A DNA stretch of 64,000 bases, from assembly GCA_949361645.1 (NCBI GenBank), contig OX442424.1, forward strand, positions 2,074,975-2,138,974. Reading direction: 5' to 3'. Origin of the DNA: Spongilla lacustris (taxonomy: Eukaryota > Porifera > Demospongiae > Spongillida > Spongillidae). Below, piece after piece: positions 7,536-56,766 of the stretch (position 1 is its first letter; every line of letters starts with the position of its first letter). The notes under the pieces were generated by a model. It did no database searches. It was not told the DNA's origin and saw nothing but the letters and a program-made list of their open reading frames with translations. A program made the position numbers and the translations under genes.

Positions 7536-8610
7536 TTGCATGCTTGTGGTGAAATTTCGTGCGCATGCGCAAATTCCACTTCACAATGCGTACTCCAAAT
7601 ACACGTATTCTCATGAAGATATTTATGAATACAAAAACTACATTGGGGTTTTAATTCTTTTAATCGTGCATGCACCAAGAGGTCATGCTTCTAGATTTGC
7701 TTTCTGATTTATCAATTTCTCCACTATTTCTAATCATTGTTAATGTACGATATCGAAATCTAGTCTCGTCCCCAGACCGTAATGGGATCTCGAGACGAGA
7801 CTAGGTACCTCCTCTCTATATAATCACTACTACAGTACATGTAGAATGAGAACACTCAAGCGTTATTTTTGCACACAGGATTTGAAGGCTAAAAGGAGGG
7901 AAACAAGGGTGAAATCATAAGGAACAATGATATATATCCCCCGTGGGACATTTTGGTGTTTATATGCTAAATGATTCCACCCTACCACTTTTGCCTTCAA
8001 ATAAACCTCCTCGTAGTATTTACTTGTTCCTGCATATATACACCACCAACTTTCTTGTAGAGAATGTTTTTATTTTTTTGTGCTAAACAGCTGTCCTGAC
8101 ATGGATGGTTGCATGGAAAGTACAGCGGGGGTGGCATGAAAAGGTGGTTGAAAGGAAGGCAGAGGTGCAGGTATTGTGTATAAGTTTATTTTAATGAAGC
8201 CGTGGTTGTGTCTCTTGAAATTATTTTCAGGTACTGTTTGTGAACATGCTTGTGCCGCCAGTGGCTGGGAATTAGTATATTGCTGCTTCGCCCTTGCATG
8301 CATGGTTGCTGCAATGTGAGACTTACTTGTACACATTGCAGCTTTGAAGTATGTACACATGCAGCACGTACACATGTACGCATGCAGCATGTACATTGGG
8401 CATGGATAACCGGTTGATGCCACAATGAGACTTACTTGTACACACTGCTGCTTCATCCTTGCACATATACAGCATGTACACTGCACATATACAGCATGTA
8501 CACTTTACAACATGTACATATTATAAGTGTGCATTATTATATTGCAAATCTATGCATTCAAAATAAAACTATTTGAAGTGCAGGTAATGAGGCAGCTAAA
8601 ATAATCAAAT
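7536..8610. other. Intergenic; promoter side of the hnRNP-like gene
   Basis: No coding exon seen. The first about 100 bases upstream of the hnRNP-like ATG should hold its promoter and 5' UTR. A short hairpin-like sequence with inverted AGTCTCGTC/GACGAGACT lies at about 7762-7801. AATAAA on the minus strand near 8178-8183 could end the transcript of the DEATH-KH gene model. At 8280-8520 there are repeated CATGTACAC/GCAGCATGTACA words. Confidence 0.5.
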
Positions 8611-11600
8611 TTAGTGATGAGGACTTTCGACGTCATCTAGAAACCTCCCATGCCTCTTGCAACCTGGGTCATTCCGAGGGTGCCTCATCAGAAGCCCCGT
8701 ACCCTCAACTTCCTTTCCTTCCAACTGTGAAGGATCCTTACAAGTTGGGTGCAGAGATTCTCTGGACACACATCTGGGCTCCATTCCAATGGCATCTGCT
8801 CCTATCATGTTCTGCACATGTATGATGTCATTCTTGTGAGTTCTACATTCATTAGGAACATATATTGTGACTATTCTGCTTTCCTGCATATGGATGGTAA
8901 TAAGGTTGTCCATTAACGCGAGCATTGCCCTTTTGGAGTTCTCAGCAGTTCCAGTGATTTCAGCTCTGCCATTGGTGTGGGGGTTGCGGCAGTCTGGCAC
9001 TTCATCAATGTAGATCTTTGCATTGGTGCCCTCTTCCAAGCTCTTGATATGTCTGACAAGATGGCCTATCTTGTCCCCTGGAAAGCGAATGATCAACTTG
9101 GTTTCATTTACTGTGATTTTCGGGCCTGTGAGGTTAGCAGCAAGTGCTTTAAAACAAGGACTAATAACAATTTATTAACATAATATGGCTTAACCATGTA
9201 TTTTTCTGAGGTACAAGGATTTAGGTTTATGACGTGTACAACACTGGTGCCAATAAACCCTGAACCCCATATGTCGACATCACTTAGCACTTTTCTTAAT
9301 GTGATCATAAGTCAAAGACAGATGGTAGCACAGTGCGAAAGATTAAATTACAAGCTGTTATGACCTTCCATCCTCACCTGAAAAATGCATCTATACACTT
9401 AGAAGGATGCAGGTCCACCTCTAACATCACCTACATCACCATTATTCTTGTATGTGTACAGTCTCGTCCACGTTATGTAATAATGTCATTGCTTGCTGTA
9501 TGACATCAACACTGTTACATACTGCCAGTGATGACATCATTACGTTACACAACGTCATACTGCCAGCAATGACATCATTATGTTATATGCAATGACATCA
9601 TTATGCACTAACCAATATATGTATAGTGTACTGATTTGTTCAAAACTTCACGCATCTTGTAGCTATATCCTAGCAGTTGAAGCTTCTAAAGGGATGTGGT
9701 GCTAAGGTAATGTGATACCATTCTAACATCATGGCTCTTGCAAATGGTGCCCAAGTTGGGGGCATGTCTCCTTCCCTGATTTACCAACACTTTAAATTGA
9801 TTGTAAATAAACACATATACAATGGCAAAACTTACGATTAAAACGCTTCAACACACAACTTGTTTCTTTATGGCTTCTGGATCTCCTAACAGGTTCATAA
9901 AAAATTCGGCTTTCCTCCACAACAGTGCTAGGTCTTCGCGGATGATGCAGCGATGTGGCTGACTGCACACGCCGTAGAAGAACATTGTTTAGGGGATATT
10001 CTGAGAATGGAAAATAAATAAAAGCACGCTTGACTGTGTACTAATTTTTAAACTCCTCGCTATATGTTGTATGCCTATATGTGTATGCCTATATGTGTAT
10101 GCCTATATGTGTATGCCTATATGTGTATGCCTATATGTGTATGCCTATATGTGTATGCCTATATGTGTATGCCTATATGTGTATGCCTATATGTGTATGC
10201 CTATATGTGTATGCCTATATGTGTATGCCTATATGTGTATGCCTATATGTGTATGCCTATATGTGTATGTCTTGTGGTGCTTTTAATTGTTTTGATTTTC
10301 TAGAAGCCTGCATGCCCTCAGCTCTGAATATTATAATTAGCAGTTCATGTTGTAATGGACACACACAAAATATGTGCACCACCACACACAAACTCACACC
10401 AACACACACAAACACGCAATACATGATGATATGCTGGTCTAGCCATATAACATTCCAGAGCCAGCAAAAATAAAGCAATGGTAACGTTTGTACCGGATTG
10501 CACATCAGTGTGTTGTAAAATTTACACCCCATTTACAGAATGTCTTTAAAGTCTTCCAACTTAATATGTGCCAAAAATATAATATATAGCTATAAATAAC
10601 AAGCAATGGAGTTTTAATCACATTTTTGAACTGTGTCACAACTCCTTGAGGGTCAAAGTTGAACAAGAAACGAACACACACATTTACACCTTTTCAGAAA
10701 TAAAAACTATAGTGTCATCTCATTTATTTTTAAATAAAAATCACTTTGGTTTAGAGCATAGCACTAAGGCAATTATAGTGAACTTCATAGCTCCATTCTG
10801 CATGACTATTCTGTGAAGGAGAGAGCAGAGATAGGCAATTGTATACTGCAGGGCAATGAAGGCTGGTTGACACTTTTTGAAGGGAGAATCATCCTGCAAC
10901 TGTATGAAGCCCATTGCTGCTGCATTGAGCCAACAATTGCTAGCTAGGTTGAACAATCAAACTTAGAGGTAGTTCAGGCTGTTATATTAGTTTTACCCAA
11001 GAAAGTACTCACTCTCATAGAGAATGTTTTTTAATAACTTGTCATTGCAAGAAATGCCTATCCTTTGTTTGTTTTGTGTTATTTTGAATTCCTGGCTATG
11101 TATTTTCAGCAGGTGACAACTGGATTTTGGCGAAAGCAATTTTCTTTTAATGTCCAAGTAAGAACATTTCTTGCATCTTATGTGTCACCATTTAAGTGCA
11201 GGATTATCCTATTATCTTGTTTCATCTGTCAGTTCTGCATTCATTAGCAAGAAAAACTGACCATTTTCATTCTTGTACACAAAGTTGGAATACCATTTTT
11301 TTATGACCCTTCCTCTATATATATTTTTGCATCACACATCAGTGTACTGTGGGTTACCAGTAAGTGTGTTTACATGCCTGAATGGTATTGAAAAAAAATT
11401 ACAGTGCTCAAAATCAGTACTTAAGCATTCAACCACCCCTCTTGATTATTGATAGAACTTTCAATACAAAATTCACACTAAGAATGTTCCACAACCATAT
11501 ATGCACTGATGGCACTTACGTTTACCAGGTCCACTATTGATAATTCCTTGTCTTTTTAACATCTAAAAATTTGCCTATTTAAGATCTTTTTCTCATTGAC

Positions 11601-14125
11601 CACAGATGGTAGTGACCAGCTGGGAGTGGCACACTATTAACTTATATAAAGCTTGCCCTATCATCTTTTTTCTTAAAATATCCCAGCAATGCTATCTTTC
11701 CACATTGGACCACATTACTCAATTAGTATTAATACTAATCTTGGCAGGTTAATCATTGGTTATAAAAGTCAACAATTGCCAAAGTTCAAACTCCTTGCTG
11801 GAGTGATTCACTGTTATATGACTTTGAAATGTAGCAATCAAGTATGTTTGAATAAAGAGAAATGAAAACATCCCATACTAATGACGATACATATTTGTGT
11901 ATTAAGTTTTCATTTGTCAAGTTTTCATTTGTCCTTAATCTTGTTTCCTTGCTTTTATTTTATATCTTAATCTCATCCTTAAATAAACTTAATTTTAATA
12001 GAGAAGTTTTTATATTGCTTGTTTTTTTTCTGCTTTTTATTATGTGCTTGTAGGATGATATGAAACTTTTGTTTTAACTTATTAACAGTTTCCAATGGAT
12101 TGTACAGGGAGGGGCATGTGCCTCTGGTGACCTCCTCCCCCACCCAAAGCAAGACATATGCATATGCAGTGCAGATCTGGAATATATAATGAGTTGGTTA
12201 TGATTCAAAACGAACGCAAGTAAACAGGAATTGGACCCATGCGTCCAGGGCCAAAGGTATATGTAGATGAATGTCCTTACTGACACTGTACTGTAAACTT
12301 CAGTCCAAATATTGTGTTAGTGCATTCCAGAATGTAGCCTGGCATTATATAGGCTTGGTATGTGTTTTGGATCCCCATATAGTAAGCAGCTGCAAAGTGT
12401 CAAACAACCACAAATCCATTGGTATACTGGTGTTCTTTTAGTAAAACTTTTCCTATTCCAAATCAGTTATGCTGACCAAAGCTAAGAAGCTAAGAAGATG
12501 ACAACTCTCAGTAGCCCTGTTAAACACAGGTCATTCATGCTTTAAAAAATGACTTTCAAGATATAAACAAATTTGCGAAATTGTACTTAGTCATCTAAAC
12601 ACTTCAATTCTTTTAAAATTATTGCGATGCAGATTCACTATAGCATGCAGAATGAAGACGTATAGCTTGCATGGCATCACTAAATATTACCCCCTGGCAT
12701 GCAGTGTGAAACTATAAAACTGTTGTCTATTTCTTGGCTCATTTCAGTAACACACTGCCTTTGAAATGTTAATCCATTTAACGGTACTTAGAGCTCAGAC
12801 TGCAAGCTATTGGATACCTTGGAATCGTTTTCGGTTCATGGAATAACAATAACAGCGTTCTCTTTGTCACGCTCGGCTGCATAATGTTGTCTAAACCATG
12901 GCGCTACTGTATCATTCCTAAGCCTGATTGTTATTATTGTGAAGATGTCAACAGTGCCACCGACGGTATATGGCGATTTCTACAATTATTAATAACTTAA
13001 TGCATTTGCACGCGCGTGCAACGAATCGTATGGCCCTGGACGTTGGAATTGAAGTACACAATGTAGATCTCTGCGAGTACGCTTTGAGTGGCGTCATTCA
13101 ATATTAATATTATGTGTAAGCTGCTATATATATTCCACCGGCTTTGAAATCATGCACTTTGTGAACTGAGCGAAAGTTATTTCAACTTCCCGGCTTGTAT
13201 TAGTTGCATGTACCGATGCCCGCACGACTCATAACATCAGAATCCAAACTAGACTCCTCGGACTCGGACTGCTCTACATGATCCTGAGGTTGGGCGCTCA
13301 TTACCAAGCTGGGGTTTTATCTTCTTAAAATTATATATTTAACACAATGCGCCGTTGCTCTCAATAATATCCTGGCGTGCACGGACATGGATTCTAATCA
13401 TAATTGTACTCACACTCATACAATAGCACGCCAAGTATAATGTTATAGCCGGTGTACAAATGAGTACGCAATCATATATATGCATCTCATTCCCAACGCT
13501 GCATGTGTACACAAAGATCATTTCCTTGCATGTTTGGCCTGCTGCTATACTATAATGGCGATGAGTTGTTTTTGCCTATGCGCGTGTATACATACATGGC
13601 TTAAAATGGGGCTATAGTAATGAATACAACCATATGGAGTGAAAGTTGAAGACAAGAGTGCATGGTTGAGCTTTTCAGTTTAGATGATTGTATTAGTTGT
13701 ATATATATGGTCAGCGCAAGTGACAGGGTAGACTAGGTAGTGTGCTAATGCTTATTAGATAATAACTCTTATACATTTACCTGCGCCTATTATGAGGTGA
13801 TCCAAACCGGCTGATTGCGCAGCTGCTTTTAACGTCTGGACAGTAGCATGCAGACCACAGCGTGTCTTCCAGAGGTGGAAAAGGCCGTGGATTTGGTCAG
13901 ATAGGACGTGCGGATTGGCCACTTCAATACCATCCAGATCAGTTTTTCCAAACCCGAGTCCTCTTCCTAGACATTTCCAGTCATTCCCGATGTTTTCCGA
14001 TAAGTGCCGAATTACTGCAAGCAGGTATAGATCGTGACGTGAATGGCTGCCTTACATGTATGCCCAAAATACGCAACACGACAGTCTATCGCAGCTGGCC
14101 GCTTACCAGTGTCCACATCATCCAT
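8611..14125 (-). CDS. Candidate DEATH domain-KH-like domain protein (head to head with the NLR)
   Basis: Model of four coding exons: 14107-14125 (ATG, MDDVDT), 13781-14014, 9836-10000 and 8611-9125, giving 933 bases (310 residues). All junctions are phase 1 and in frame. Exons 1-2 encode a DEATH domain (about 7-80; HLSENIGNDWKCLGRGLGF, DLDGIEVANPH, LWKTRCG). Exon 3, with a good pyrimidine acceptor and a GTAAGT donor, encodes a basic linker (RRVQSATSLHHPRRPS, EPVRRSRSHKE). Exon 4 encodes a KH-like fold (about 141-215): KLIIRFPGDKIGHLV, SLEEGTNAKIYID, GRAEITGTAENSKRAMLALM. The GXXG nucleic-acid loop appears to be missing. Intron 2 is 3.8 kb. The DEATH exons are almost the same as those of the NLR at 21089. 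The link from DEATH to exons 3-4 rests on splice sites and phase only; exons 3-4 could belong to a separate KH gene, and the DEATH exon could be an orphan copy. Confidence 0.5.
10066..10270. repeat. 12-bp minisatellite, about 17 copies
   Basis: Near-perfect tandem copies of TATGTGTATGCC inside intron 2 of the DEATH-KH model. Because the unit is a multiple of three it stays open in several frames and mimics a long Cys/Tyr/Met protein. It is not a gene. Confidence 0.97.
10271..13780. other. AT-rich intron or intergenic sequence, no gene recognised
   Basis: Lies inside intron 2 of the DEATH-KH model. The only protein-like stretch I noticed is on the minus strand at about 10741-10956 (AFIALQYTIAYLCSLLH). 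It has no family I recognise and no clear splice frame. Nothing else coding or structured stands out. Confidence 0.5.
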
Positions 14126-16601
14126 GTGCTTATAATAATAACTGAAATCGAAAAGCCAGCTTGTTAATGTACGTACGCTTGTACTGCTTGAATTGAAAGA
14201 ATACATAGGGTAGATTAAGGTAATTCCGCCAGGGGGGAGTGTTCGCCACCCTTAACTTCAAACGCGGCGCTTAGGGCTTACCTGACGTTTTTATATCGCA
14301 GCAAAATATGGAAATATTAGTACATGGAGTCTGTGTTTACGGCCCACAATTGAAGTTCTATTAGTTATTTCGGTTCTTACAAAAAAAAATCAAAAACTAA
14401 GCTACCTCAATTTTCGGCAAAAGTGGTACGGTAAACAACGCGCAATTGGAAGTGAGTTTACCTGGTGCAAGTCGCTGTACGTAAAATACGTAGTCAATCA
14501 TGTGTCATGATCTGTTTAAAATCTTGTTATTAGAGGAGAGTGGTGATTTCTGGACAATATATGTAGTTCTATTTGTTATGAAACTTACTAGCTTGGGAAT
14601 TAGGGTGGGTGGCGGACACTCCAATCGTAAATTACGCTATTAAGCAGTAATCGCCACGGCACCCCTGGCGACTACTCAAACTTTCTGAAATGATGAAGTG
14701 GGAATAGTCAAAATAGCTACCATTAGGCCTATAAATGTTTGCTACCAATTATATATCAGTACTGTAAGTTGTTCATGTTGGGAAGGAGTGTTCGCCATGG
14801 GGGCGTGGCCTTCTTTCCCATACACACATAATGGGATGTCCATAAATACATATTTTCTCTGACACTTCATGCTTCAAATGGTTACTTTTTTTTGTTTCTG
14901 CATGGCCTTCTAATCAAACTCAGTTCAGTTGCTTGAGCCAACTCGAGCCCTTGGATTTGTACGTTTTAGCTAACTGCAAGCCACGGATGTACAAATGGAA
15001 GCCGTTCTATCCAAAAAAAAAATACTAGCATCGCAAAGAAACACTCCCAGGGCGTTTAAAGGGCTACAGTGAACAAGCTTACTTGTTTTAGCAACGTCCT
15101 ATGTAAAAACCACTTTTGTTACACTTCGCAACAACGAAATACAGGGGGTGGCGAACACTCCAATTGCAAATAGACGTGCAACAGGGGTGGCGATAATACC
15201 TGAAATACGCTTAATTGGATAAAACCACAGTTTTATTTTGTTTGGAACACTTTTTTGGAGAAACGAAGCGATAATAGTGTAGAATAAGGACTGAGGATCT
15301 CTTGAAACCAAGTATGCTTGAAGCACTACCCGTCCTTTTTTTTAATATGTAAGAATACCGATATCGGTACTCGCGGGTGCAGGTGGCGAACACTACTTAA
15401 TTGACCCTACAATTATTAATGGTTAAATCATTAATCTAACAAAATATTTCATGCGGTCAAAAGGTCGGCGGTGTAATGGAAATCATTGGGATACATTCAT
15501 TGGCTATGTCGCGTACGTCGCTTCGTCTTAAAGTTTGGGGGTGTTCAAACTAAGAAGGAAGATGTCCTGCATGAAAGTGCAAAGCCTACATGTACATCGA
15601 TCTGTAACTTTCATCATACTTTACAAACAATCGATTTTAAAAATACGCATAGTGGGCTCTTACAGGCTGGCAGTTACAGCCGTCTTACTCTTACGATAGT
15701 TATAGTATACACACCCTAGCGGCACTTCAAATAGGCCGGAAGTTCACGTTTATTTCAGGGAATGCTGCTGCATGCATGATGCCCAAACTATCGATCTGTA
15801 ATTGGAAGCCCAGCGAAACTATTAACTGGGGCTTGTGTGCTTTAGGTATCTTATAACTGTTCCTTTCAGTTCTTGCATTGCTCAGTCATACACATTGTAT
15901 AAAATCCAGTATCACTATGGCGATCAATTCAACCTTTCTGCCCGGCCAAAACTTGTTCACCAGATATACTCCTTGAGGTTTTCAACAAGCCAGGATGATG
16001 GATTTGTATATCACTGCGGAATCTGTGATTTTAGACCGTAAAATCCTAGACGTCATGCAGAAGAAATTTTTTGTTAATTGTTTATTGATACCATTTGCTA
16101 AAAGCGATCTGGTAGCTTCACTGTGCTTCGTCATTGCTTACTATGCATTCAGAACGACTGCCGAATGCGTCAGCAATAGATCAGACTATTTTTTTTAGTT
16201 TTAAAACACGCAACGTATTTATCAAGTGTTGTTCAAATCGAGTTTTCAAATTCTCCCCACGATTTTCGGCTCTATTTAAAACTGAACGCTGCGTCCTTGC
16301 AAGGTAAATAGTATACTGTACTCTCCCCTCTAGATAATTGATCCTTCTATCTAGGCCGGGTACCTTCTACGATACGCCAGTTACTAAACATCGATCCCAT
16401 TAATAGGCCTATAGACCACTGCCGTTTCATCCCGGGAAGGATCAAAACATTAGCGGCCATATTGTTTTGGCCCAAAATGTGTGCGTTATTTAGAATTTGT
16501 GTTTTCATTACGTACATGATGTAATAATAACAACTTAGACTGGTGAAAAATCACGGCCTAATTAATTGTATTCATAAGTTTAAGTACGAATCATATACTT
16601 A
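13815..16601 (-). repeat. Left arm of inverted duplication carrying a DEATH exon and upstream DNA
   Basis: Once a 1.2-kb transposon (14208-15407) is set aside, 13815-14207 plus 15408-16601 is a near-identical reverse complement of about 19950-21410. The shared part covers most of the DEATH exon, the small start exon and about 1.1 kb of upstream DNA. Identity fades inside the 3' end of the DEATH exon, where the left copy reads SAGLDHLIIGA and the right copy SAGLRINGSL, though both keep the donor G|GTAAATG. Confidence 0.9.
14208..15407. mobile_element. 1.2-kb non-autonomous DNA transposon, TA target duplication
   Basis: The ends are inverted: GGGTAGATTAAGG with AGTGTTCGCCACCC on the left, and on the right the reverse complement of GGGTCAATTAAGT with AGTGTTCGCCACC. 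TA flanks both sides. The other arm of the inverted duplication (near 21010) lacks it, which gives an empty site. The GTGTTCGCC motif recurs inside at about 14610, 14787 and 15147, in both orientations. There is no transposase. The TA target suggests a Tc1/mariner-like mechanism (inference). Confidence 0.88.
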
Positions 16602-19215
16602 TGGATAAGGCTACTTATGTTGCCTAAATGTGTCTTACCCTCTTCTAAGCGAGCTGGAAAGAAGCATAAGTTGACACCTATCAGTAAGTTTTGTGAGTTG
16701 TGGTCAGATGGTAAGGAACGACAACTTTGGCAAAAAGCAAAAGAGTCAGCTTTGCATTGCAATAAAGCTCACAAGCCAAGCCGAATCATTTCAACCCAAG
16801 ATGCTGAGTTATTGAGGATCAATGGGGCTATAAGTTGTGCAGAACAGGGTCTATTTCACAAGGCGTGCACCATGCTTACATCAACTGGTTTGGCTCCGGA
16901 TTCGGAGGCCACATGGGAGAAGCTGAAGGCCAAACATCCATTTGCTCCTCCCCCTATTGCTCCACCTACTGTAGACCAACATGAAAGTCCACTGGATAAA
17001 GATTTTGACATCCTAAATTGTCTGCAGAGCTTCCCTAAAGCCACTGCTTGTGGCCCTTCAATGTTAAGAGTGCAACATCTTATAGATGTGACAAGGAATG
17101 CTTTCCTGAATCGTGAGACTCAATTGCCCAGCCTCCTTCGTCAGCTTGTTATATTGCTTGCCTCAGGAGAGGCTCCTACCTCTCTAGCTCCCTACCTTGC
17201 TGGTGGAAACCTGGTGGCCCTGATGAAGATAAAGGAAGGTGGTGAGTGGGACGTGAGGCCCATTGCTGTTGGAGAAGTTTTACGCCGTCTCACAGGTAAG
17301 TGCCTCTGTAGTGTGACCAAGATCAAGGCCAGCCAGTTTTTTCATCCTCACCAGTATGGAGTGGCATGTCCTGGTGGGTCAGAGAAGATTGTGCACAGGC
17401 TTCGCTCTTGCATTGAGAATTGCTGGGGCAATGGAGATTTTGTGACTTTGAAGATCGACATGCACAATGCTTTTAACAGTGTCTCAAGGCAGTGGGTTTT
17501 GGATGAGTGCAAGGAGCATTTCCCCGAGCTGCTTCCCTGGGTTTCCTGGTGCTATAGCCAACACCCTTTACTTTGGCATACATCTGGTGTGCTGCACTCA
17601 GCTGATGGTGTCCAACAAGGTGATCCACTTGGGCCACTGCTATTCGCCTTGGTGTTGCATAAACTAGTGATGAAGTTGGATGCTGAGCTCGGTGCAGATC
17701 TGCTCTTAAATGTGTGGTTCCTGGATGATGGTGCTTTGTGTGGCCCACGTGAAGTGATCATTCGAGCTCTGCAGATATTCATGGAAGATGGTCCTTCACT
17801 AGGCTTACATCTTAACTTAGCCAAGTGTGAATTGTTCAGTCCACAGAGTTTTAATGTTTTAACCCCGGAGGGGGTCTTAATCAGTGAGCAGTCCTTTCCA
17901 CCTCAGATTACTAAACGCTCACATATCCCAAATCTGGTAATGCTTGGTGCTCCCATCGGTGATACAAAGTTCTGTTCTGCCTTTGCCGAAGAGAAGCGGC
18001 TGGAGGCCCAAGAACTACTGCAACTACTTCCCAAGTTGCATGATCCCCAGGTAGCTGTCACCTTACTGCGCAAGTGTGGTGCATACTGCAAGTTGGTCCA
18101 CCTAGCCCGTAGCACTCCTTCAGATGTTTGATTGTGATGTTCGCAGTTTTTTTGAGGAGTGTGGGGCTATTCAACTAACTGAAGATGCTTGGTCACAAGC
18201 ATGTTTGAGCATCAGTCGAGGGGGATTTGGACTGCGCTCTTTAAGGCGGCATTCCCCTGCTGCTTACCTGGCTTCCTTATGTGCCTCTGGGAGCAGTTCA
18301 GCAGACATGGAGCACAGGGTAGAAAGAGCTCGTGAGCAATTTAATTGCTCTGTTCCTGATAGTAAGGCAGTAGTGGATTTCTCAACCATTATGGAATCCC
18401 CACCAAAGCAGGCTTCCTTATCTGCAGTCCTTGAAGACCTAGACCAAGCAGCCCTTTGGGAGGCTTCTCCACCTACTACCAGATCGAGGCTTTTGGCTGT
18501 GACTGCCCCAGGAGCTTCTGATTGGTTAAAGGTAATTCCATCCCCCGGTCTGGGTCTGCGGCTGTCCCCAGATGAAGCCCAAGTTCTGATCTAATGGTGG
18601 CTGGGCCTTCCACTCTTTGAAGATGGTGCTACTTGCCCTCTGTGTGGACCTCAGGAGCCCTTGGATAAGCTAGGTCACCATGCCACCACATGTAAAAGAG
18701 GACCACATGTTTGCCGCCGTCACAATGTTTTAAGAGATGTTTTATTTGAATTTTTCAGTCGGGCTCTGCTTTCTCCTGAGCTGGAGAAGGGAAGTGGCAT
18801 GGACCATTCGCATTCCCAAACCCGTCCAGCTGATATCCTGGTTCCATCATGGTCCATTGGAAAATCTGCTGCCTGTGATGTCACAGTTGTGAATCCGCTC
18901 AACCCAAGCTTGATTCTGGGAGCGAGCACAACTGTGGGTTACTCGGCAGCAGAGAAAGAAGTGGTCAAAATGACTAAGAATGGCCCGAAGTGTGCAGAAC
19001 TTGGGTGGGAGTGTATTCCCCTGGCTGTAGAGACATATGGTGGTTGGGGAGAGAAGGCCCAGGAAATGTTCAACCGGATCAGCAGGAGGTTGGCAGTGGG
19101 CTCAGCATCCAGTGAAGCCGGGGTGAGGCAGGACATGTATGGGAGACTAAGCCTGACCTTGGTGAGGGAGAACGCTAAGGCAATCCTGGCAAGATCCAGC
19201 TGGCCAGTTAGCTGA
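16602..19215 (+). pseudogene. Reverse transcriptase plus restriction-like endonuclease ORF, damaged
   Basis: RT palm motifs are clear: motif A LKIDMHNAFNSV, motif B GVQQGDPLGPLLFAL and motif C WFLDDG. After the RT comes a CCHC zinc knuckle (CPLCG, LGHHATTCKRG) and a PD-(D/E)XK-like region (RHNVLRDVL, RPADILVP, AACDVTVVNPL, CAELGWECIPLAVETYGGWG). By family this is a nicking endonuclease used to prime reverse transcription. The frame breaks twice: a frameshift between about 18115 and 18131, and a TAA at 18592-18594 in the middle of the endonuclease half. The N-terminal DNA-binding part is missing because of the 5' truncation. The copy looks young but dead. Confidence 0.92.
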
Positions 19216-19292
19216 ACCCTTATGTGTTATAATGTGTTAGTATGAAGTTGTATTCTAGTTATGTACGTATGATGATAAAATATAATTATAAA
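16602..19292 (+). mobile_element. 5'-truncated RLE-type non-LTR retrotransposon with 7-bp TSD (family A)
   Basis: The insert is bounded by ATACTTA at 16595-16601 and again at 19293-19299. The other arm of the inverted duplication (about 19940-19960, reverse complement) has the same sequence without the insert, so the empty site is visible. The reading frame is already open at the first inserted base, so the 5' end is cut off. The 3' end is AT-rich (ATAATTATAAA) and has no long poly-A. It landed inside a MITE. This pattern is the usual mark of target-primed reverse transcription. Confidence 0.9.
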
Positions 19293-19395
19293 ATACTTAG
19301 AGCCGAATGAAATGTTGCGGGCGTACAATTATAGTGTTTGATTAAAAATTTCTAAATAACGCACACGTTTTGGTCCAAAACAATATGGCCGCTAA

Positions 19396-19812
19396 TGACA
19401 AGTCTCGTACCCAGACCCAAATGTACGTAACGCTTACAGTATAACATCACTTGGAGCTCGATCAACTATAGGCCATGCCTTTAACCACTCCCCTGTCGAC
19501 CTGATTACAAAGGTTACGTTGCACAGGTCTCATCTATTCTTTAGTTTACTGTCTGACTGCCTGACTGCCCCTTTTAGTACACATAAGCATACATCATGTA
19601 TCCTTACAATGTAATTACTTGATCTTATTATTATCATTATTATATAAAAATATTATAAAAACGTGATGTTATACTCGATAATCATCGTTACGTACATTGT
19701 ACGTGATGTTATACTGTAAGAGATAATCATCGTTACGTACATTGTACGTGATGTTAGATACGTGATTGTAAGAATCGTTACGTACTTTTGGGTCTGGGTA
19801 CGAGACTTGTCA
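19396..19812. mobile_element. 417-bp MITE at the centre of the inverted duplication
   Basis: TIRs of at least 22 bp: TGACAAGTCTCGTACCCAGA on the left and its reverse complement ending at 19812. Inside is a two-copy direct repeat of about 50 bp around CGTGATGTTATACT and ATCATCGTTACGTACATTGT. It forms the loop between the two arms of the DEATH-gene inverted duplication. Confidence 0.75.
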
Positions 19813-20104
19813 TCCCGGGAAGGATCGAAACATTAGCGGCCATATTGTTTTGGACCAAAACGTGTGCGTTATTTAGAAATTTTTAATCAAACACTATAAT
19901 TGTACGCCCGCAACAATTCATAACCATTTCACTCGGTTCTAAGTGTATGATTCGTACTTAAACTTATGAAACAATAGCCGTGAATTTTCACCAGTCTAAG
20001 TTGTTATTATTACATCATGTACGTAATGAAAACACAAATTCTAAATAACGCACACATTTTGGGCCAAAACAATATGGCAGCAATGTTTTGATCCTTCCCG
20101 GGAT
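19812..20104. mobile_element. About 293-bp MITE with 70-bp TIRs
   Basis: Inverted ends ATCCCGGGAAGGATC, then GGCCATATTGTTTTGG and GTGTGCGTTATTTAGAA. A second copy, split by the family A retrotransposon and cut by the neighbouring MITE, lies at about 16429-16601 plus 19293-19395. Confidence 0.8.
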
Positions 20105-21410
20105 GAAACGGCAAGGGGTCTATAGGCCTATTAATAGGATCGATGTTTAGTAACTGGCGTATCGTAGAAGGTACCCGGCCTAGATAGAAGGATCAATTAT
20201 CTAGAGGGGAGAGTACAGTACTTACCTTGCAAGGGACGCAGCGTTCAGTTTAGAGCCGAAAATCGTGGGGAGAATTTAACACTTGATAAATACGTTGCGT
20301 GTTTTAAAACTAAAAAACTATTGCTGACGCATTCGGCAGTCGTTCTGAATGCATAGTAAGCAATGACGAAGCACAATGAAAGCGCTACCAGATCGCTTTT
20401 AGCAAATGGTATCAATAAACAATTAACAAAAAATTTCTTCTGCATGACGTCTAGGATTTTACGGTCTAAATTCCGCAGTGATACAAATCCATCATCCTGG
20501 CTTGTTGAAAACCTCAAGGAGTATCTGGTGAACAAATTTTGGCCGGGCAGAAAGGTTGAATTGATCGCCATAGTGATACTGGGAACAGTTTTAAGATACC
20601 TAAAGCACACAAGCCCCAGTTAATAGTTTCGCTGGGCTTCCAATTACAGATCGATAGTTTGGGCATCATGCAGCAGCATTCCCTGAAATAAAAACGTGAA
20701 CTTCCGGCTTATTTGAAGTGCCGCTAGGGTGTGTATACTATAACTATCGTAAGAGTAAGACGGCTGTAACTGCCAGCCTGTAAGACATTGTTTGTAAAGT
20801 ATGATGAAAGTTACAGATCGATGTACATGTAGGCTTTGCACTTTCATGCAGGACATCTTCCTTCTTAGTTTGAACACCCCCAATCTCTAAACTGACGAAG
20901 CGACGTACTATACGCCAATGAATGTATCCCAATGATTTCCATTACACCGCCGACCTTTTGACCGCATGAAATATTTTGTTATAGATTATTGATTTAACCC
21001 ATAATAATTATATATATTCTTTCAATTCAAGCAGTACAAGCGTACATTAACAAGCTGGCTTTTCGATTTCAGTTATTATTATAAGCACATGGATGATGTG
21101 GACACTGGTAAGCGGCCAGCTGCGATAGACTGTCGTGTTGCGTATTTTGGGCATACATGTAAGGCAGCCATTCACGTCACGATCTATACCTGCTTGCAGT
21201 AATTAGGCACTTATCGGAAAACATCGGGCATGACTGGAAATGTCTAGGAAGAGGACTCGGGTTTGGAAAAACTGATCTGGATGGTATTGAAGTGGCCAAT
21301 CCGCACGTCCTATCTGACCAAATCCACGGCCTTTTCCACCTCTGGAAGACACGCTGTGGTCCGCTTGCTACTGTCCAGACTTTAAAAGCAGCTGCGCAAT
21401 CCGCTGGCCT
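19950..21410 (+). repeat. Right arm of inverted duplication (NLR side)
   Basis: Reverse complement of 13815-14207 plus 15408-16601. It includes the first two coding exons of the NLR and about 1.1 kb upstream. No other gene is seen in 20105-21072, so this stretch is the likely promoter/5' UTR region for the NLR, and its twin serves the DEATH-KH model. Confidence 0.88.
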
Positions 21411-24400
21411 CAGGATCAATGGCTCTCTGATCGAGGCAGACGGCGGAGCCCAAACAGGTAAATGATCCCTCGGGTTTACTTTTCGTCATGTCATCCATTT
21501 GCTAATTACCGTACCACCTAAACCACAGGTTTTGGTGTCGCAGAATATATCGAATACTTGAGAGATAAGTACATCACCGACCTTTCCAGCGCACAGCCGC
21601 TGTTGCCTGTCCCTGTTAAAAAGCACGTGAACCTCCACTTGGTACAGAACGATGATGGGGAGGAGGAGGACCTTCAGTGGGTCATGTGGGAGGCGGTCCA
21701 TGGCAACAGCAATACCACCAAGAAAAAGAAAAAGAAGTCAACACCCATTGACATCAATAAGGTAAAAGGGGATCAAAGGTACCTTGAAACTCAGCCCCTC
21801 TCCTCCCTATCTTCGCTCCTCCTCCCCTCCCCCTCCTTTCCTTCCCTCCTCCCCCTCTTTTCCTTCCCTCCTCCCCTCCTTTCCTTCCCTCCCCCTCCTT
21901 TCCTTCCCTCCTCCCTCCTTTCCTTCCCTCCTCCCCTCCTCCCCTCCTCCCCCTCCCCCTCCTTTCCTCCCCTCCTCCTCCCCCTCCTTTCCTTCCCTCC
22001 TCCCCCTCCCCCTCCTTTCCTTCCCTCCTCCCCCTCCTTTCCTTCCCTCTTCCCCCTCCCCCTCCTTTCCTTCCCTCCTCCCCCTCCTCCACTCCTTCAC
22101 ATGATCACTCACAACTCCCTGTCCATGTAGATTGAAGAATTAAGCAGCCTGTCTCGGTTGGTGGTAGTGGAAGGGGCACCCGGCGTTGGCAAGTCATGCT
22201 TAGCCTGGAAGCTGGGTGTGCTGTGGAAGGACAAGAAGCTGTACCAAAAGTGCCCTGTGGTAGTATTCATAAGGCTTAGAGACAGCAGTGTGCAGTGTGC
22301 CAAGGAACCACAAGACCTCTTCCTCTACCCTGACCAAGACGTGCAGGTCAAAGTGCATAGTTGGGTGCTCCGCAAAAGTGGGCGTGGCTGTCTGCTGATC
22401 TTGGACGGGTACGACGAACTCCCTGCTGGTGCCCAGACCAAATCAGTCTTCTCCAGGATCATCGGAGGTGAACTCCTCCCCCAGGCCTGGGTGGTTGTCA
22501 CCAGTCGCTCCTCCGCCATGCACAACCTCCTTGAACTGTGCAAGACCCAGGAGGTCCAGCACGTCGAGATCCTTGGCTTCACAGAGGAGCAGGTGAAGGA
22601 CTACGTCAGCAGCGCCTTTAAGCAAGACCAGAAATCCCGTTGCGGCTTCGAGGAGTACCTGAGGTGCCACCCACACTTGCAGGGCCTGATGTACATACCT
22701 CTGAACGCCGCCATTGTTGTGGGCGTGTACAAGGCCAGCCAAGAAAAGGGTTGTGTGATACCAAAGACGATGACAGAGCTGTACACTGCACTGGTTCTCT
22801 ACTTGGTCCACCACCACCATCATCGAGACCCTGCCAATAGCCCTATGGGACCCACTGAACGTATCTCTGATTTGCCAGCCCACTATTACAAAAGCATCAA
22901 GTCGATGGCAGAAATAGCATATCAGGGATGTTTGGAGGACAAACTTGTGTTCCAAAAGATGCCAATGTCCCTGGAGACCTTAGGTGTGTGTATGTGGTGT
23001 GTGTGTCCTGTGTATATGGTGTGTGTGTGTGTGTGTCTTGTGTGTATGTTGTGTGTGTATGTGATGTGTGTGTCATGTGTTTGTGTGTCCTGTGTATGTG
23101 ATGTGTGTGTCATGTGTTTGTGTGTCCTGTGTATGTGATGTGTGTGTCGTGTGTATGTGGTGTGTGTCATGTATGGTGTGTGTGTGTCTTGTGTGTATGT
23201 TGTGTGTGTATGTGATGTGTGTGTCATGTGTTTGTGTGTCCTGTGTATGTGATGTGTGTGTCGTGTGTATGTGGTGTGTGTCATGTATGGTGTGTGTGTC
23301 ATGTATGGTGTGTGTATATGTGTGTGTTGAGTGCTTATGTGTGTATTAAGGCCAGCATACTCTGGGCGACTTCCTGCCAACTTGTTGAATATGGTAAAAG
23401 TTCAGTAAACTATCTGTAAACTAAATAATAATGGCACTTTTACCCGTATTCATTTGAGTTGCATACCTGTAAAAGTCAGCATACAAGGGGGCGACTTTGT
23501 CTCATGCAACTCAATGAATATGGGTAAAAGTTCCTTAATTGTTTAGTTTACTGATGGTTTGCCGAACATTTGTCCATATTCATTTGAGTTGCATGCAACA
23601 AATCAGCAGGAAGTCGCCCCGTGTATGCCGACCTTTAGTGTACTCTTGTGTATGTAGGTTCATGACCATGTGCATGTGCATGGGTCTGGAGACAAGGTGA
23701 GAGTGACCTCCTCCTCCTCCTCCTCCTCCTCCTCCTCCTCCTCTTCCTCCTCCTCCTCCTCCTCCTCTTCCTCCACCTCCTCCTCTTCCTCCACCTCCTC
23801 CTCCTCCTCCTCTTCCTCCTCCTCCTCCTCCTCCTCTTCCTCCACCTCCTCCCCTCCTCCTCCCCTTCTCCTCCTCCTCCCCCTCCTCTCCTCCTCCTCC
23901 TCTTCCTCCACCTCCTCCCCTTCTCCTCCTCCTCCTCCCCCTCCTCTCCTCCTCCTCCTCCCCCTCCTCCTCCTCCCCTCCACCTCCTCACCCCCCTCCT
24001 CCTCTCAGGACTGATGGACAAGGTTTCTGAGCTCCATCATGGCATAGGGGCACAGTCCATCTCCTGCAACTTCCTCCACAAGACCTTGCAGGAGTACATG
24101 GCTGCCTTCCACGTGTCCCTCCTTCCCCCACAAGAGCAGGTCAGAGTACTCGACACACTCAGCGAGAAGCCACAGATGAAGATCGTATGCAGGTTCCTCG
24201 CGGGTCTCACCAAGTTCCAGCAAAAGAGTCGGTGCCATTTCCTGTGGAACCTGCTGGGCCATGTCTCCCCTCTCAGCTATGTCCAGTCCTTCCACACCAG
24301 GGGTGAGGGCTGTCTGGTGGAGGTACTGCACTGGCTGTATGAGACCCAGCAGCCTGCCCTGGTGGAGAAGGTGTTGGGGGGCATTAAAAGGGAGGTTGAA

Positions 24401-27400
24401 TTCAGTAGCACCTTGTCCCCTTTTGACTGCTATGTCCTTGGTTACATTGTGGTAAACAGCCAATCGCCATGGACACTGGCATTCAATGGGTGTGGCATCA
24501 GCAGCAAGGGTGTGGAGATGCTTCTACAGCACAGGGTGAAAGGTCAAAATGCACTATCCAGAGTGAGGAAGCTGAGGTTTTGGAGCAATCCTGTTCATGA
24601 CAGAGGGGCAGAGTGTATAGGTGAGCTTGTGTAGAGGGGCAGAGTGTATAGGTGTGCCTGTGTAGAGGGGCAGAGTGTATAGATGAGCCTGTGTAGAGGG
24701 GCAGAGTGTATAGGTGAGCCTGTGTAGAGGGGCAGAGTGTATAGGTGAGCCTGTGTAGAGGGACAGAGTGTATAAGTGAGCCTGTGTAGAGGGGCAGAGT
24801 GTATAGGTGAGCCTGTGTAGAGGGGCAGAGTGTATAGGTGAGCCTGTGTAGAGGGACAGAGTGTATAGGTGAGCCTGTGTAGAGGGGCAGAGTGTATAGG
24901 TGAGCCTGTGTAGAGGGGCAGAGTGTATAGGTGAGCCTGTGTAGAGGGGCAGAGTGTATAGGTGAGCCTGTGTAGAGGGGCAGAGTGTATAGGTGAGCCT
25001 GTGTAGAGGGGCAGAGTGTGTAGGTGAGCCTGTGTAGAGGGGCAGAGTGTATAGGTGAGCCTGTGTAGAGGGGCAGAGTGTATAGGTGAGCCTGTGTAGA
25101 GGGGCAGAGTGTATAGGTGAGCCTGTGCAGTGGCTATGAAAGGGAGAAAAGATATACATGTAAAAGGCACAGAGTTCATACTTTGTTTATCCAAGACCTA
25201 GCCACTGTTGATTTAACATCAGAGATGGGGCAATTCCCTTTGGAATCAGAATCATCTCCTTCAGATTGTCTGGCAGACAAGTCTTCTCCCTTCCTTACAA
25301 TGATAGTTCCTGGCAATCACTCAGGTCCACCAACATAGAACTCACCATACTCTTAGTGGACTTCATGTGTCCAGCCTGCTTGACACTCCCACCCCCCACC
25401 CCCACCAATCCCACCACTCCTACCCCCACCCCCACCCCCACCACCACCACTCCCACCCCCACCACGCCCACCCCCTCCACCCCCCACCCCCACCCCACCC
25501 CCAGCACTCCTACCACTCCCACCACTTCCTCTTTTGCAACTAATCCAACCTTTGCATGTACCATCCAAGGTGCCATATTGATAGTAGCATAGGCCAGGAG
25601 TAGAGGGGACCCTACTGGACCAGGAGTAGAGGGGACCCTAATGGGCCAGGAGTAGAGGGGACCCTAATGGGCCAGGAGTAGAGGGGACCCTAATGGGCCA
25701 GGAGTAGAGGGGACCCAAATGGCAGTTATGGTTACCATGCAGTCAGCCCTTGCTGGTCAAGGGTATGTGGTTAGAAGCCCAAAGGATGCTGCCCACAAAT
25801 AGTGGTTTGAGCTGCAGCAGTGCAAACATGTGTACACAATAAGCATGTGGTGGTCAGGAAGACAAGGTATGCCAGCAGCAGTGGTTGTGACTCCAGTCCA
25901 CCCACCAACCCCTTCATTGTCCTGCATACCATAATATTGTTATATTCTAATCAGTATCCTTTAGAAGTTACATCAGCTAGAGGGGCTTGAATGGATGTGA
26001 GTGTTCCCCAGAAGCTTTTCTTAAGTTTTTAAAATTGATCACACATTACCCTTGGGGGAAGGAACCCAAGGGTAACGCACATTTGCTTACCTCTAACTCT
26101 CAATACATATAATGGATACGCACAACTCCTTCACTGTGTGGCATCATTATCTGATCCCAACATTTGCCATGTTATACACGTAAGGTGATGCTTGCACAGA
26201 CAGACATTAAGCTATAGACATGATCTGCTTGCATTTTACCAAACATTAAACCAAGTTTAGTACCACACCTTAATAGCAAACTGTCTCAGTCTAGTTATGA
26301 CCTACATGTATCCTAATTTAAGAAGGCTGTTAAAATGGAGTTGACTGCATGTATCCCCCTACTGTAATAGTAGGTCCACCCACACCATAGTTACTGACTA
26401 CTATATAGGGGAATGTGTGTTGAACCTGTACTACCATGGCTACTCACACACAAACACCACAACACATTGGCTTGGGCATATGTGTGGTCACATTGGCTTG
26501 GGCATATGTGTGGTCACATTGGCTTGGACATATGTGTGGTCACACTGGGCTTGGGCATATGTGTGGTCACATTGGCTTGGGCATATGTGTGGTCACACTG
26601 GTGTGTGGTCACACTGGCTTGGGCATATGTGTGGTCACATTGGCTTCCAAGGACATATGTGTGGTCACATTGGCTTCCAAGGACATATGTGTGGTCACAT
26701 TGGCTTGGACATATGTGTGGTCACACTGGCTTGGACATATGTGTGGTCACATTGGCTTGGACATGTGTGTGGTCACATTGGCTTCCAAGGACATATGTGT
26801 GGTCACATTGGCTTGGGCATATGTGTGATCACATTGGCTTGGACATTACTTTCTTTTTCTGCTGCAGGTGAGGCAATGAAAAACAATGACTGTGTTACTG
26901 AACTGGAGCTTTCAAGTGGCGGAATAACATCTGCAGCATTGAAACAGCTGTGTGTATCTCTCCATGGTAACATCACCTTGACTACGTTGGACATATCAAA
27001 CAATCACTTCATGGACTCGGACATTCGTGGTTAGCATACTACAGGGGCGATAAAAACTTGGGAGAGGGAAGTAAAGGCAGAGGTGGTGTGTGTGTGTGGA
27101 GATGGTGATGTGGGATGGGGAGGTGATGTGGGAAGGTTGGATCGGGAGGTGGTGTGGGAAGGTGGGATGAGGAGGTGATGTGGGAAGGTGGGATGGGGAG
27201 GTGATGTGGGAAGGTGGGATGGGGAGGTGATGTGGGAAGGTGGGATGGGGAGGTGGGGTGGGAAGGTGGAGTGGGGAGGTGGGGTAGGAAGGTTATACAT
27301 GATATTGTTGTTGGGCACTTAGGTTCCAATTTATCGTTAGTGGGTGTTAGAATCTCCTATTTCAGGATGTCATTAATTGCCTATGAGCAAACACAAAACG

Positions 27401-29216
27401 TAGAATAATTAAATGCCCAACTAATGAAATACCTTCGGCAGAACTTTACAGGAACACTCACAAGTTCACCTGAAATGAATTGTGCATGATCTCAATTAGC
27501 AACTTTACAATTTTCACTGTGTAGAAATCTGATTTTAAAAAGAATAAGTGAACAAGGGATATAGTTTTACTGCTTAACGAAATTTTAAGAGGAAAGGCAT
27601 ATACCGTACTGCCAAGACGTTTTGGCGACAACTAGTTGGTGGAAAGTTCCGCCAACCGTGTCGCCATCGCTTAATATTTAATTTTCTCTGACAACAAGTT
27701 ATCCGTGTCGCGGAGGGGGGCGGGGAGAGGAGCATTCTGCATGTAATTAAATAGCTAGCTGTAGACGATATTTCCGCCAATTATAAATCACCTTAAATTT
27801 AATGATCCTGAGACTTCCGCCAATTGAAAATCGCCAGTTAGTTAAAATAAATCGTTTTGGCTCCGCCAAACAGTTCTCTCCGCTATTATGTCTTGGCAGT
27901 ACGGTAGCAGTTATGATGGTAAAGTCCCCCAGACCGAACATTGCCCCGGACTGTATACCCTATGACACCGGCATGGAATTCCAACTTCCATTATAATATT
28001 CACAACATGTGTGCATACCAGCCAATACAGTGCCTGCTCGCTAACATTGGGGAGTTAAGCACACTGTCCATCTGTAGTGGTGTAGTGGTGTAGAGCGAGT
28101 AAGCTTGTTAAATACACTGGCAGTCTGCCTAACTCCCAATGCATTTAGGCTTATGTAACGTATCTGTGAGGTCAAGCATGCATAATTGCTGTACTAGTAC
28201 TCAGAATGTGAATGACGATAGTGTGTTTCTGCTTTTTCAAAGTATTAATGCCAACTTTATATGCTGCACTTAATTGCAGCTGATATGTGAAACACTAGCT
28301 CAGATGCCTTTATAAAACATTCAAAAGGGTGCCGCATGCATTTCATAAGCCAATGTGTTATTAGCAAAGGAAAATACTGCTTAGCTGTGGTTATAGATTG
28401 TTACATTTCAGCATCAGAATTACTGTATCAAATGTGTGAGTAATTTTATGGGCTGTTGAACATGTAGCATAATTAAGGCGTTGGTGCTTTTACATATCCA
28501 CATGCCCTCAGGTCTGCAACAGTTGCTGGCGAAGAACAGGAGTCTCACAAGATTGAACATTTCTTTGTGCAAGATAGGCCCTACTGGCGTTAAGGAAATC
28601 TGTTCTGCCTTATGTGGAAATACCACACTGACTGTATTGGAGATGTCTGGAAACACTTTTGACATGCAAAGTGTTGCTGCCTTTGGTATGATTACCACCA
28701 CAGGCTATCACTATTTTTCCCTCCCCCTCCCCCTCCCCCTCCCTCTCTTTCTTCAATTGTGGCATGCTTTAAATATGAACAGCCATATATGCTGCTTCTC
28801 CAATGCATTGTGTGTTAACAATGACTTGCACCAACCCTCTCCTATCTGTAGGCCGGGCCATTGAAGGCAACAGATCACTGGCTGAGCTAAAGCTGATCAA
28901 GTGTGGTCTCGATGATGACATGATGCAGTGCCTAGCCCAGGGCATCGTGAAGTGTTCCTTGAGGCTCCTGGATGTCTGCAATAATCCGTTCTCAGTGGGA
29001 GGGGCGAAGGCTCTTGCAGAGCTCATGAGGAACCATAAGAGCATCGAAGATGTTTGGGTCTGGAGCGAGAACCTGTCATGTGACGGTGTGCGCTGCTTGC
29101 TTGAAGCTGTGAAGTCTAATGTTCGAATCAAGAAGTTGCTGCTGAATTCTAGCATCAGAGATCAGATGGAGCTGGTGCAGTTTGCAGACCTTGAAGGCAG
29201 AGTTGTTTACAACTGA
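21089..29216 (+). CDS. NOD-like receptor: DEATH-NACHT-LRR
   Basis: Eight exons: 21089-21107, 21200-21457, 21529-21761, 22131-22983, 24009-24620, 26868-27029, 28512-28685 and 28852-29216. They give 2676 bases (891 residues), with all phases consistent. The ATG (MDDVDT) sits 16 bases after an AG acceptor, so a 5' UTR intron is likely. DEATH spans about 7-80 (LSENIGHDWKCLGRGLGFGK). A linker (93-170) carries a run of six K. NACHT begins near 178, with Walker A GAPGVGKS (185-192), Walker B LLILDGYDELP (258-268) and VVVTSRSSA. A winged-helix-like region and CNFLHKTLQEYMAAF follow. RNase-inhibitor-type LRRs fill 659-891 (NITLTTLDISNNHF, RSLTRLNISLCKIG, NTTLTVLEMSGN, SLRLLDVCNNPF). By family, these cytosolic receptors oligomerise on sensing a ligand and recruit partners through DEATH. 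The exon 6 donor GTTAGC is weak, but the junction keeps frame and LRR spacing. Confidence 0.93.
21790..22100. repeat. Pyrimidine mirror tract in NLR intron 3
   Basis: About 300 bp of almost pure C/T on the plus strand, made of TCCTTTCCTTCCCTCCTCCC-like units. It ends 30 bases before the NACHT exon acceptor. Such tracts can form triplex DNA (general knowledge). Confidence 0.93.
22984..23340. repeat. TG-rich minisatellite in NLR intron 4
   Basis: Starts at the donor of exon 4 (G|GTGTGTG). Imperfect units contain TGTGTGTCATGTGTTTGTG and TCCTGTGTATGTGATG, with a larger duplicated block of about 150 bp (22995-23170 resembles 23160-23310). Confidence 0.9.
23349..23635. mobile_element. 287-bp MITE in NLR intron 4
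   Basis: TIRs AGGCCAGCATAC...GGGCGACTTCCTGC and the reverse complement of AAGGTCGGCATACACGGGGC. TA is on both flanks. Subterminal copies of TATTCATTTGAGTTGCAT occur in both orientations. Confidence 0.75.
23708..24006. repeat. (TCC)n pyrimidine tract abutting exon 5
   Basis: Nearly 300 bp of TCC/TTCC/CCC units running straight into the acceptor CTCTCAG of NLR exon 5, so the tract itself is the polypyrimidine tract of that splice site. Confidence 0.95.
24590..25128. repeat. 31-bp minisatellite that repeats the exon 5 splice donor
   Basis: About 17 units of GAGGGGCAGAGTGTATAG plus GTGAGCCTGTGTA. The first unit is the end of exon 5 (AGAGTGTATAG|GTGAGC), so every later unit carries a copy of the same donor site. 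It fills the first 0.5 kb of NLR intron 5. Confidence 0.96.
25385..25525. repeat. CCACCC/CCACTCC simple repeat
   Basis: C-rich low-complexity tract of CCCACC and CCACTCC units in NLR intron 5. Confidence 0.9.
25588..25716. repeat. 26-bp minisatellite, 5 copies
   Basis: Units of AGGAGTAGAGGGGACCCTAA followed by TGGGCC in NLR intron 5. Confidence 0.93.
25717..26459. other. NLR intron 5, unique part
   Basis: No exon, repeat or element recognised in this stretch. Confidence 0.5.
26460..26850. repeat. 26-bp minisatellite in NLR intron 5
   Basis: About 15 imperfect units of GGCATATGTGTGGTCACATT followed by GGCTTG, with longer variants containing TTCCAAGGACAT. It ends 15-20 bases before the acceptor of exon 6. 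Confidence 0.93.
27080..27295. repeat. 26-bp minisatellite in NLR intron 6
   Basis: About 8 units of GGGAAGGTGGGATGGGGAGG followed by TGATGT. Confidence 0.93.
27604..27904. mobile_element. 301-bp MITE in NLR intron 6, TA target
   Basis: TIR CCGTACTGCCAAGAC, matched at the right end by GTCTTGGCAGTACGG, with TA on both sides. Subterminal TTCCGCCAA and TTGGCGGA-like words occur several times. Confidence 0.8.
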
Positions 29217-35000: not shown

Positions 35001-35584
35001 TCGCGTAACAGGTCCATGGATAAAATGTGATTATATAATTATCACCTCTAATATAAGAAAGTCTGTAAGTAAAAATGACCATAGCATATTGATGGATAAT
35101 TTAAAAAATACAGCTGTGGAGTGAAGTGTGTGATGGTGCCAGCAACAGTTTTAATTCAGTATAACTCAGGATTGAAGTTAATTAACCATTTGATTTCATA
35201 CAAATAACTGGTACACACAAACGATCATATTAATAGTCTATCACATCAATGTCAGCAGTAACTTGCAATATCGGATTTCATTATAATATACATTACAGTA
35301 GTTAGCAAAATTTGTCAAGATTAAAGTTAGAATAATAATTTATTTTCTGTAACTTACTAAGTTGAATATACTGAGCTATTACATTTAAGGTAATAATGCT
35401 CACAATTGTTGAACCTGTTGCGTGAAACTGATTTTCATAAGCATCTACTATTAAATAAAGTAAGAACCACTATTAATTTTGATATGGTTTTAAAATTATG
35501 TAATAGTTTTTATTATTATTACTACTAATAAAAATAATAATAATATAACATATGACTAAATAACAACAACATGATACTTATCCT
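35001..35584. other. AT-rich, no feature recognised
   Basis: Low-GC sequence; may contain the 5' UTR of the family B copy. No coding or repeat signal. Confidence 0.4.
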
Positions 35585-35587
35585 AAC

Positions 35588-35996: not shown

Positions 35997-36009
35997 CACA
36001 ATATACATA

Positions 36010-37945: not shown

Positions 37946-38019
37946 TAGTGATAAATGATAATAATAAAATAGCGAGTTGTATTAAAAATTGTAGTGGTCT
38001 GTACTGTAAGGGTTTTCAA

Positions 38020-44783: not shown

Positions 44784-44789
44784 GTACAG

Positions 44790-56700: not shown

Positions 56701-56766
<66 letters not shown>

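Follow-up and report, generated by a model that had tools for sequence, protein, structure and literature searches.

A sponge DEATH-KH gene whose DEATH domain may have been overwritten by that of a neighbouring NLR receptor

The window analysed here, a stretch of 64,000 nucleotides of Spongilla lacustris DNA (positions 2074975-2138974 of the contig designated C11), contains two predicted genes that diverge from one another and an inverted repeat that includes their 5' ends (Table 1). The right gene, on the plus strand, was predicted to encode DEATH, NACHT and LRR segments in that order, the arrangement of a DEATH-type NLR. An earlier sequence-only reading of the same DNA had proposed that this gene continued into NACHT and LRRs, and the Pfam matches bore this out at the level of sequence. 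The LRR_6 profile scored above its cut-off in the frame at 28460-28864 and below it in three other scanned frames. A near-copy of the receptor was found on the same contig at 2187-2199 kb (loci L016 and L021, C11:2187293-2199834) and was 88-92% identical to the window in the four longest pieces. The match started at window position 21170, while the repeat arm upstream of this point was unmatched. The near-copy also has a much longer array that matches the 31-bp minisatellite of the window (24602-25133).

Table 1. Predicted exons, open frames and repeats of the two genes and of the DNA between them (window coordinates).
Feature	Position	Strand	Remarks
Right gene, predicted start exon	21089-21107	+	MDDVDT
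Right gene, DEATH exon	21200-21457	+	Pfam Death 2.5e-10
Right gene, NACHT open frame	22131-23138	+	Pfam NACHT 4.9e-25
Right gene, HD2-like frame	24005-24634	+	NLRC4_HD2 1.5e-5, but 26.0 bits, below the cut-off of 33.1
Right gene, last LRR frames	28460-29216 (28460-28864, 28779-29216)	+	LRR_6 2.9e-10; 0.17
Left gene, start exon	14125-14107	-	MDDVDT; phase-1 donor G/GTAAGC; picked by eye
Left gene, DEATH exon	14014-13781	-	Pfam Death 2.2e-11 (open frame 13755-14051)
Left gene, basic linker exon	10000-9836	-	Predicted from position, phase and open frame
Left gene, KH exon	9125-8611	-	KH1 lacking GxxG; KH2 decayed; C-terminal tail unrelated
Inverted repeat, left arm, inner part	13807-14207	-	Pairs with 21011-21407; 389/397 aligned bases identical
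Inverted repeat, left arm, outer part	15408-16601	-	Pairs with 19940-21012; 1040/1061 identical, 20 gap events
Inverted repeat, right arm	19940-21407	+	Outer 206 bp are a separate interspersed repeat
1.2-kb interspersed repeat	14206-15409	.	Left arm only; starts 81 bp 5' of the left start codon
Broken reverse-transcriptase element, spacer between arms	16584-19226	+	RVT_1 5.8e-16 for 16584-18131

The left gene lies on the minus strand and has the appearance of a DEATH-KH gene. The sequence-only reading had it run from a DEATH exon through a basic linker into a KH-like domain, with phase-1 junctions and a product of 310 residues, and as sequence this model held: the four exons joined to give a single 933-nt frame of 310 amino acids with one terminal stop, and all junctions were read as phase 1 with GT-AG borders. 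The 19 bp of its start exon recur in the other repeat arm, where they form the predicted start exon of the receptor (21089-21107). The linker exon was the sole open phase-1/phase-1 pair among the 14 acceptor-donor pairs of 100-300 nt that simple rules picked out on the minus strand of 8001-14000. When compared with five linkers of the family described below, it gave nothing above shuffled sequences (summed p 0.56; best single p 0.106), so that the support for this exon consists of position, phase and open frame. By eye, a second frame within it runs open over 45 codons, starting at an internal ATG, and the gene model without the linker exon is still open, with 255 amino acids. The predicted intron between the DEATH and linker exons is 3.8 kb long; a near-perfect 14-bp minisatellite lies within it at 10068-10277. 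Pfam detected no nucleotide-binding domain, NACHT included, in the three left-gene exons scanned, and no CAP-Gly region was found in the window by tblastn at E <= 0.01. Downstream of the KH exon, on the minus strand, RRM_1 frames at 6352-7354 (6352-7017 above the cut-off, 7043-7354 just below it) look by eye like a gene of the hnRNP H/F type.

KH domains bind RNA or single-stranded DNA, and GxxG is the nucleic-acid loop motif of those of type I. Several observations agreed that the left gene encodes a type I KH domain, 1) the profile KH_1 of Pfam matched at 6.9e-5, with 23.0 bits against a cut-off of 21.5, 2) tblastn aligned the domain with KH1 of a paralog at C11:2203-2206 kb (3.9e-9, 88 columns, 34% identical), 3) the predicted fold, of modest confidence, had the order beta-alpha-alpha-beta-beta-alpha (E11-17, H21-25, H28-35, E38-43, E53-59, H62-83), with block pLDDT values of 59-81 for residues 11-80 and a mean of 47.9 for the whole model, and 4) the best solved fold match to the model was NOVA-2 KH3 (E 9e-4, target TM 0.75), and nearly all of the 50 structure matches listed were KH-domain proteins, 1 of 1,244 having E <= 0.001. 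These bear out what had earlier been called a KH-like fold. The domain was absent from the genome-wide six-frame list of KH_1 matches at E <= 0.001, its sequence had no KH match among solved structures (two matches, at E 0.58 and 0.66), and in the protein collection the KH exon recovered itself alone among 16 candidates. In the alignments, the four loop residues of GxxG were absent from KH1, and no GxxG was present in the KH2 remnant, which is reduced to 27 aligned residues, 9 of them identical. Residues 83-172 of the model were unstructured. The differences between KH1 of the window and that of the paralog were distributed over the three codon positions as 38/17/40, with dN 0.58 and dS 2.59 (dS being saturated), which indicates coding constraint on KH1. 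Since GxxG is lost and KH2 has decayed, direct sensing of RNA is unlikely for the copy in the window.

The shared part of the DEATH exon and the DNA upstream of it form the inverted repeat, whose arms are 98% identical where aligned. Over the start exon and the nearest 5' DNA, 188 of 189 aligned bases are the same in the two genes, with one 4-bp gap. The claim that the first exons and upstream DNA were almost identical stands for the repeat itself. It does not extend to the final 26 bp of the DEATH exon in the left gene, which lie outside the repeat while the 5' part lies inside, so that the two DEATH exons differ at their ends, nor to the left upstream DNA as a whole, which is interrupted by an insertion. 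In a genome search with the repeat arm (78 match rows; 40 scored of 434 candidates), the inner part (query 206-1241) matched the two arms only, plus a 78% match on contig C10 (query 263-554). The insertion behaved as an interspersed repeat: in a corresponding search (48 match rows including one to itself; 40 scored of 657 candidates), positions 14206-15409 held 45 of the 47 non-self match rows, at 89-97% identity, and the other two fell in the outer end. Gap events between the arms, and the insertion private to one of them, make an assembly error an unlikely source of the inverted repeat. The spacer frames at 18106-18594 and 18595-19215 had no Pfam match.

Further reverse-transcriptase-like frames occupy 32197-38034 on the minus strand (RVT_1 4.9e-18 in 37069-38034), with no Pfam match for the frames at 33995-34939 and 32393-32989, and 42787-57420 contains several long inverted repeats, for example 53392-54170 with 54386-55115 (93%) and 47880-48273 with 55468-55861 (98%).

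A paired head-to-head promoter had been suggested by analogy with plant NLR genes. The predicted genes are indeed divergent and have upstream DNA in common, but their predicted start codons are 6,964 bp apart, with the retroelement and the interspersed repeat between them. This distance of 7 kb, the intervening retroelement and the repeat that begins 81 bp before the left start make a compact, plant-like shared promoter doubtful. Immediately 5' of the left ATG, a pyrimidine-rich CAG was read from the sequence as a candidate acceptor of a 5' UTR intron, and if this intron is real, the 1.2-kb insertion could be intronic.

The state of the left gene raises the possibility that it is a decaying DEATH-KH pseudogene, in which case the inverted repeat would be incidental in repeat-rich DNA and the two genes would have no joint function. 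The KH2 segment is decayed and unstructured in the model (pLDDT about 30), GxxG is absent, an interspersed repeat lies close to the start codon and the KH exon had no relative in the protein collection at the sensitivity used, all as might be expected of such a gene. However, the 310 codons are open, the junctions are consistent and the KH1 differences avoid second codon positions, with dN/dS about 0.23, a value to be read with dS saturated. We regard decay to a pseudogene as possible, though unlikely.

The KH exon of the window is not isolated in the genome. A search with it found two places, itself and C11:2203582-2203797 (E 0.00136). The genome-wide KH_1 search returned 25 matches from 48 candidates, four of which, at three places, were beside DEATH exons on C11; the KH of the window and that of a gene designated B were missing from this list. 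When these results were combined with a genome-wide DEATH search (150 scored of 405 candidates), five predicted genes with DEATH followed by KH on one strand were located in C11:2.08-2.35 Mb, including the one in the window. The four further genes lie within 270 kb and comprise a DEATH-CAP-Gly-KH-KH gene and the genes A, B/C and D. The left gene has the exon arrangement of this family, with both domains on the same strand, a phase-1 DEATH donor and a phase-1 KH acceptor. Of the two KH domains expected in a member, its KH1 is clear and its KH2 is present as the remnant described above. A linker exon of A and D gave no phase-1 fit by eye, so that in these two genes the phase rule applies to the DEATH donor and KH acceptor only. 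Each paralog has GxxG in at least one KH (GREG and GKKG; GRNG; GPDG; GSNG).

The DEATH-CAP-Gly-KH-KH gene (locus L015, C11:2199500-2209400; about 2203.3-2206.4 kb, minus strand) was read as one gene. Its CAP-Gly region is of the CYLD type, with a best solved-structure E of 4.2e-5 and CYLD as three of the four matched sequences, and the CAP_GLY profile scored 34.0 bits on the joined exons against a cut-off of 26.5; tblastn found no CAP-Gly region near the other DEATH-KH genes. It resembles the window gene in having the closest KH1 and the closest DEATH tail, and it adjoins the near-copy receptor (within about 4 kb) as the window gene adjoins its own receptor. It differs in the CAP-Gly region, in GxxG in both KHs and in being convergent with the receptor.

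The sequence-only reading had recommended a search for DEATH-KH proteins in related genomes, and relatives were found. Profile searches of the protein collection gave at least 16 matches among 7,998 scored candidates and, in a second search, at least 6 among 7,996; both were length-limited and covered the best-scoring candidates, and relatives outside freshwater sponges may exist. Two proteins from EukProt, Em0016g352a and Em0016g353a, carry both Pfam domains, and Em0016g354a combines DEATH with a KH that narrowly misses the cut-off (20.7 versus 21.5 bits). The label Em presumably denotes Ephydatia muelleri. The best Spongilla matches of the three proteins are, in turn, genes A, B/C and D; the order of these genes on C11 is the same, and the consecutive numbers suggest that the order of the cluster is conserved. 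Like the window gene they combine one or two DEATH domains with KH; unlike it, they keep GxxG in KH2 and their DEATH is not receptor-type. A tandem DEATH-DEATH precedes the KHs in gene B/C (L017, C11:2346.6-2348.5 kb) and in Em0016g353a (P0001). The predicted model of the latter contains a pair of DEATH-like helical bundles and a pair of KH-like folds, connected through a disordered linker (mean pLDDT 70.6), and its structure matches include tandem KHs and the FADD DEATH. In another sequence, P0002, DEATH, linker and KHs occupy one 385-aa open frame (longest contig 1,783 bp); P0002 is probably an assembled transcript, which suggests that DEATH and KH are joined on one transcript in a relative. 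No description of DEATH-KH proteins was found in the titles and abstract openings of the literature searched, and in the portion of PMC8195603 that was consulted the sole 'KH domain' passage is about Hymenoptera and their NCOA6-type proteins. Judged from sequence, DEATH-KH is a small sponge gene family for which these searches found no description.

The DEATH domains of the left and right genes are identical at 68 of 71 residues, and the pattern of the differences bears on how this came about. A site counted as informative if the two receptor copies were the same there and the DEATH-KH paralog was not; inside the repeat, in DEATH codons 1-71, 63 of the 67 such sites in the left gene were receptor-type, 2 were DEATH-KH-type and 2 were other. 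Beyond the repeat, the tail of the left DEATH exon, GLDHLIIGAG, was closest to that of the DEATH-KH paralog (6/10, BLOSUM 27) among 24 other DEATH loci, with a few places represented twice. Next came the receptor copy at 2187 kb, which scored 18 with an offset, followed by L027 at 15 and L032 at 10. The left tail is also without the 3-aa insert present in both receptors. Over the 7 codons after GL, a short stretch of evidence, the paralog shared 11/21 bases and 3 amino acids with the left gene, while the receptors, aligned past the insert, shared 7/21 bases and 1-2 amino acids. A simple duplication that ended at a random break was rejected, the tail beyond the repeat being still DEATH-exon-like. 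The receptor-type sites inside the repeat, the paralog-like tail and the KH homology together argue for a DEATH-KH gene that was overwritten at its 5' side by the receptor.

The repeat boundary inside the DEATH exon might instead mean that the 5' end of the receptor alone was duplicated, that the DEATH exon on the left is an orphan whose donor is fortuitous and that the KH exons belong to another, unrelated gene. The 3.8-kb intron to the linker is consistent with such a fragment, the paralogs being more compact. On the other hand, the tail beyond the repeat is most like the end of the DEATH exon in the DEATH-KH paralog, the KH exon has no ATG upstream of the KH domain and four paralogs have the same order and strand, so we consider an orphan fragment very unlikely.

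The preferred explanation, overwriting by the receptor, is that the left gene is a diverged DEATH-KH member that shares its lineage with the predicted DEATH-CAP-Gly-KH-KH gene lying 120 kb from it, and that sequence of the neighbouring receptor has taken the place of its promoter side, its start exon and the greater part of its DEATH exon. The replacement would have come about by gene conversion or by an inverted duplication, in either case stopping within the homologous DEATH exon, and the two proteins would as a result carry nearly identical DEATH domains. In animals, cell-death and immune signalling routinely use DEATH domains as connectors, and these act by homotypic contact. With 68 of 71 residues identical, the two neighbours are good candidates to co-assemble, and contact between their DEATH domains is plausible on the strength of the sequences. 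The most likely role of the DEATH-KH protein would be that of an adaptor or modulator, engaging the receptor by homotypic contact between DEATH domains. In family members whose GxxG is intact, RNA binding would be added to this contact, whereas the window copy, without GxxG, would be a DEATH-level modulator or a protein-binding decoy and not an RNA sensor. As a whole this account, in which we infer the splicing, expression, direction of copying, contact and function, appears reasonably probable.

The suggestion that the neighbours form a two-component pair survives in part. The DEATH-KH gene is real as sequence and its DEATH domain nearly matches that of the receptor, but the window KH is without GxxG, and at the near-copy receptor (C11:2187-2199 kb) the DEATH-KH neighbour is arranged tail-to-tail, so that head-to-head order is not constant. 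In its full form the suggestion would be a true two-component sensor, in which the genes are co-expressed from matching promoters, the DEATH domains are matched and the KH protein senses RNA. The near-identity of the start exons and nearest 5' DNA would suit matching promoters, and next to the other receptor copy, too, there is a DEATH-KH gene at a distance of no more than about 4 kb, with GxxG in each of its two KHs. The loss of GxxG in the window, the variable orientation of the pairs and the repeat that interrupts the left upstream DNA, unless that repeat is in a 5' UTR intron, make such a sensor highly improbable here.

A DEATH-KH fusion family clustered near NLR genes suggests that, in an early-branching animal, NLR signalling has an entry route linked to RNA. 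The unusual step in the window is that the DEATH domain of the partner was apparently overwritten by that of the neighbouring receptor, and the notion that partners have matched DEATH domains can therefore be put to a direct test. It would be a considerable extension, and one that we think rather unlikely, that freshwater sponges use DEATH-KH proteins generally as RNA-linked NLR partners whose DEATH domains are matched by copying, the partners co-evolving by exchange of DNA rather than by parallel mutation.

The plant pair RPS4/RRS1 reportedly has a head-to-head layout with a shared promoter. It is described as a pair of NLRs (PMC4707544, PMC4246468). The analogy with plant NLR pairs does not carry over in this respect, since the left exons scanned have no nucleotide-binding domain and the sponge genes are not an NLR-NLR pair: both plant partners are NLRs, whereas in the window one partner has no nucleotide-binding domain that could be found and the starts are 7 kb apart. 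The two systems are alike in that the neighbours are divergent, have a signalling-domain type in common and include one member with an extra domain. Among sponges, the main text of a survey of the DEATH-type NLRs (NLRD) of Dysidea avara (PMC12909245), as far as it was consulted, does not contain the terms 'KH domain', 'RNA-binding', 'tandem', 'head-to-head' or 'gene conversion'. The right gene of the window is like the receptors of that survey in its predicted succession of DEATH, NACHT and LRR.
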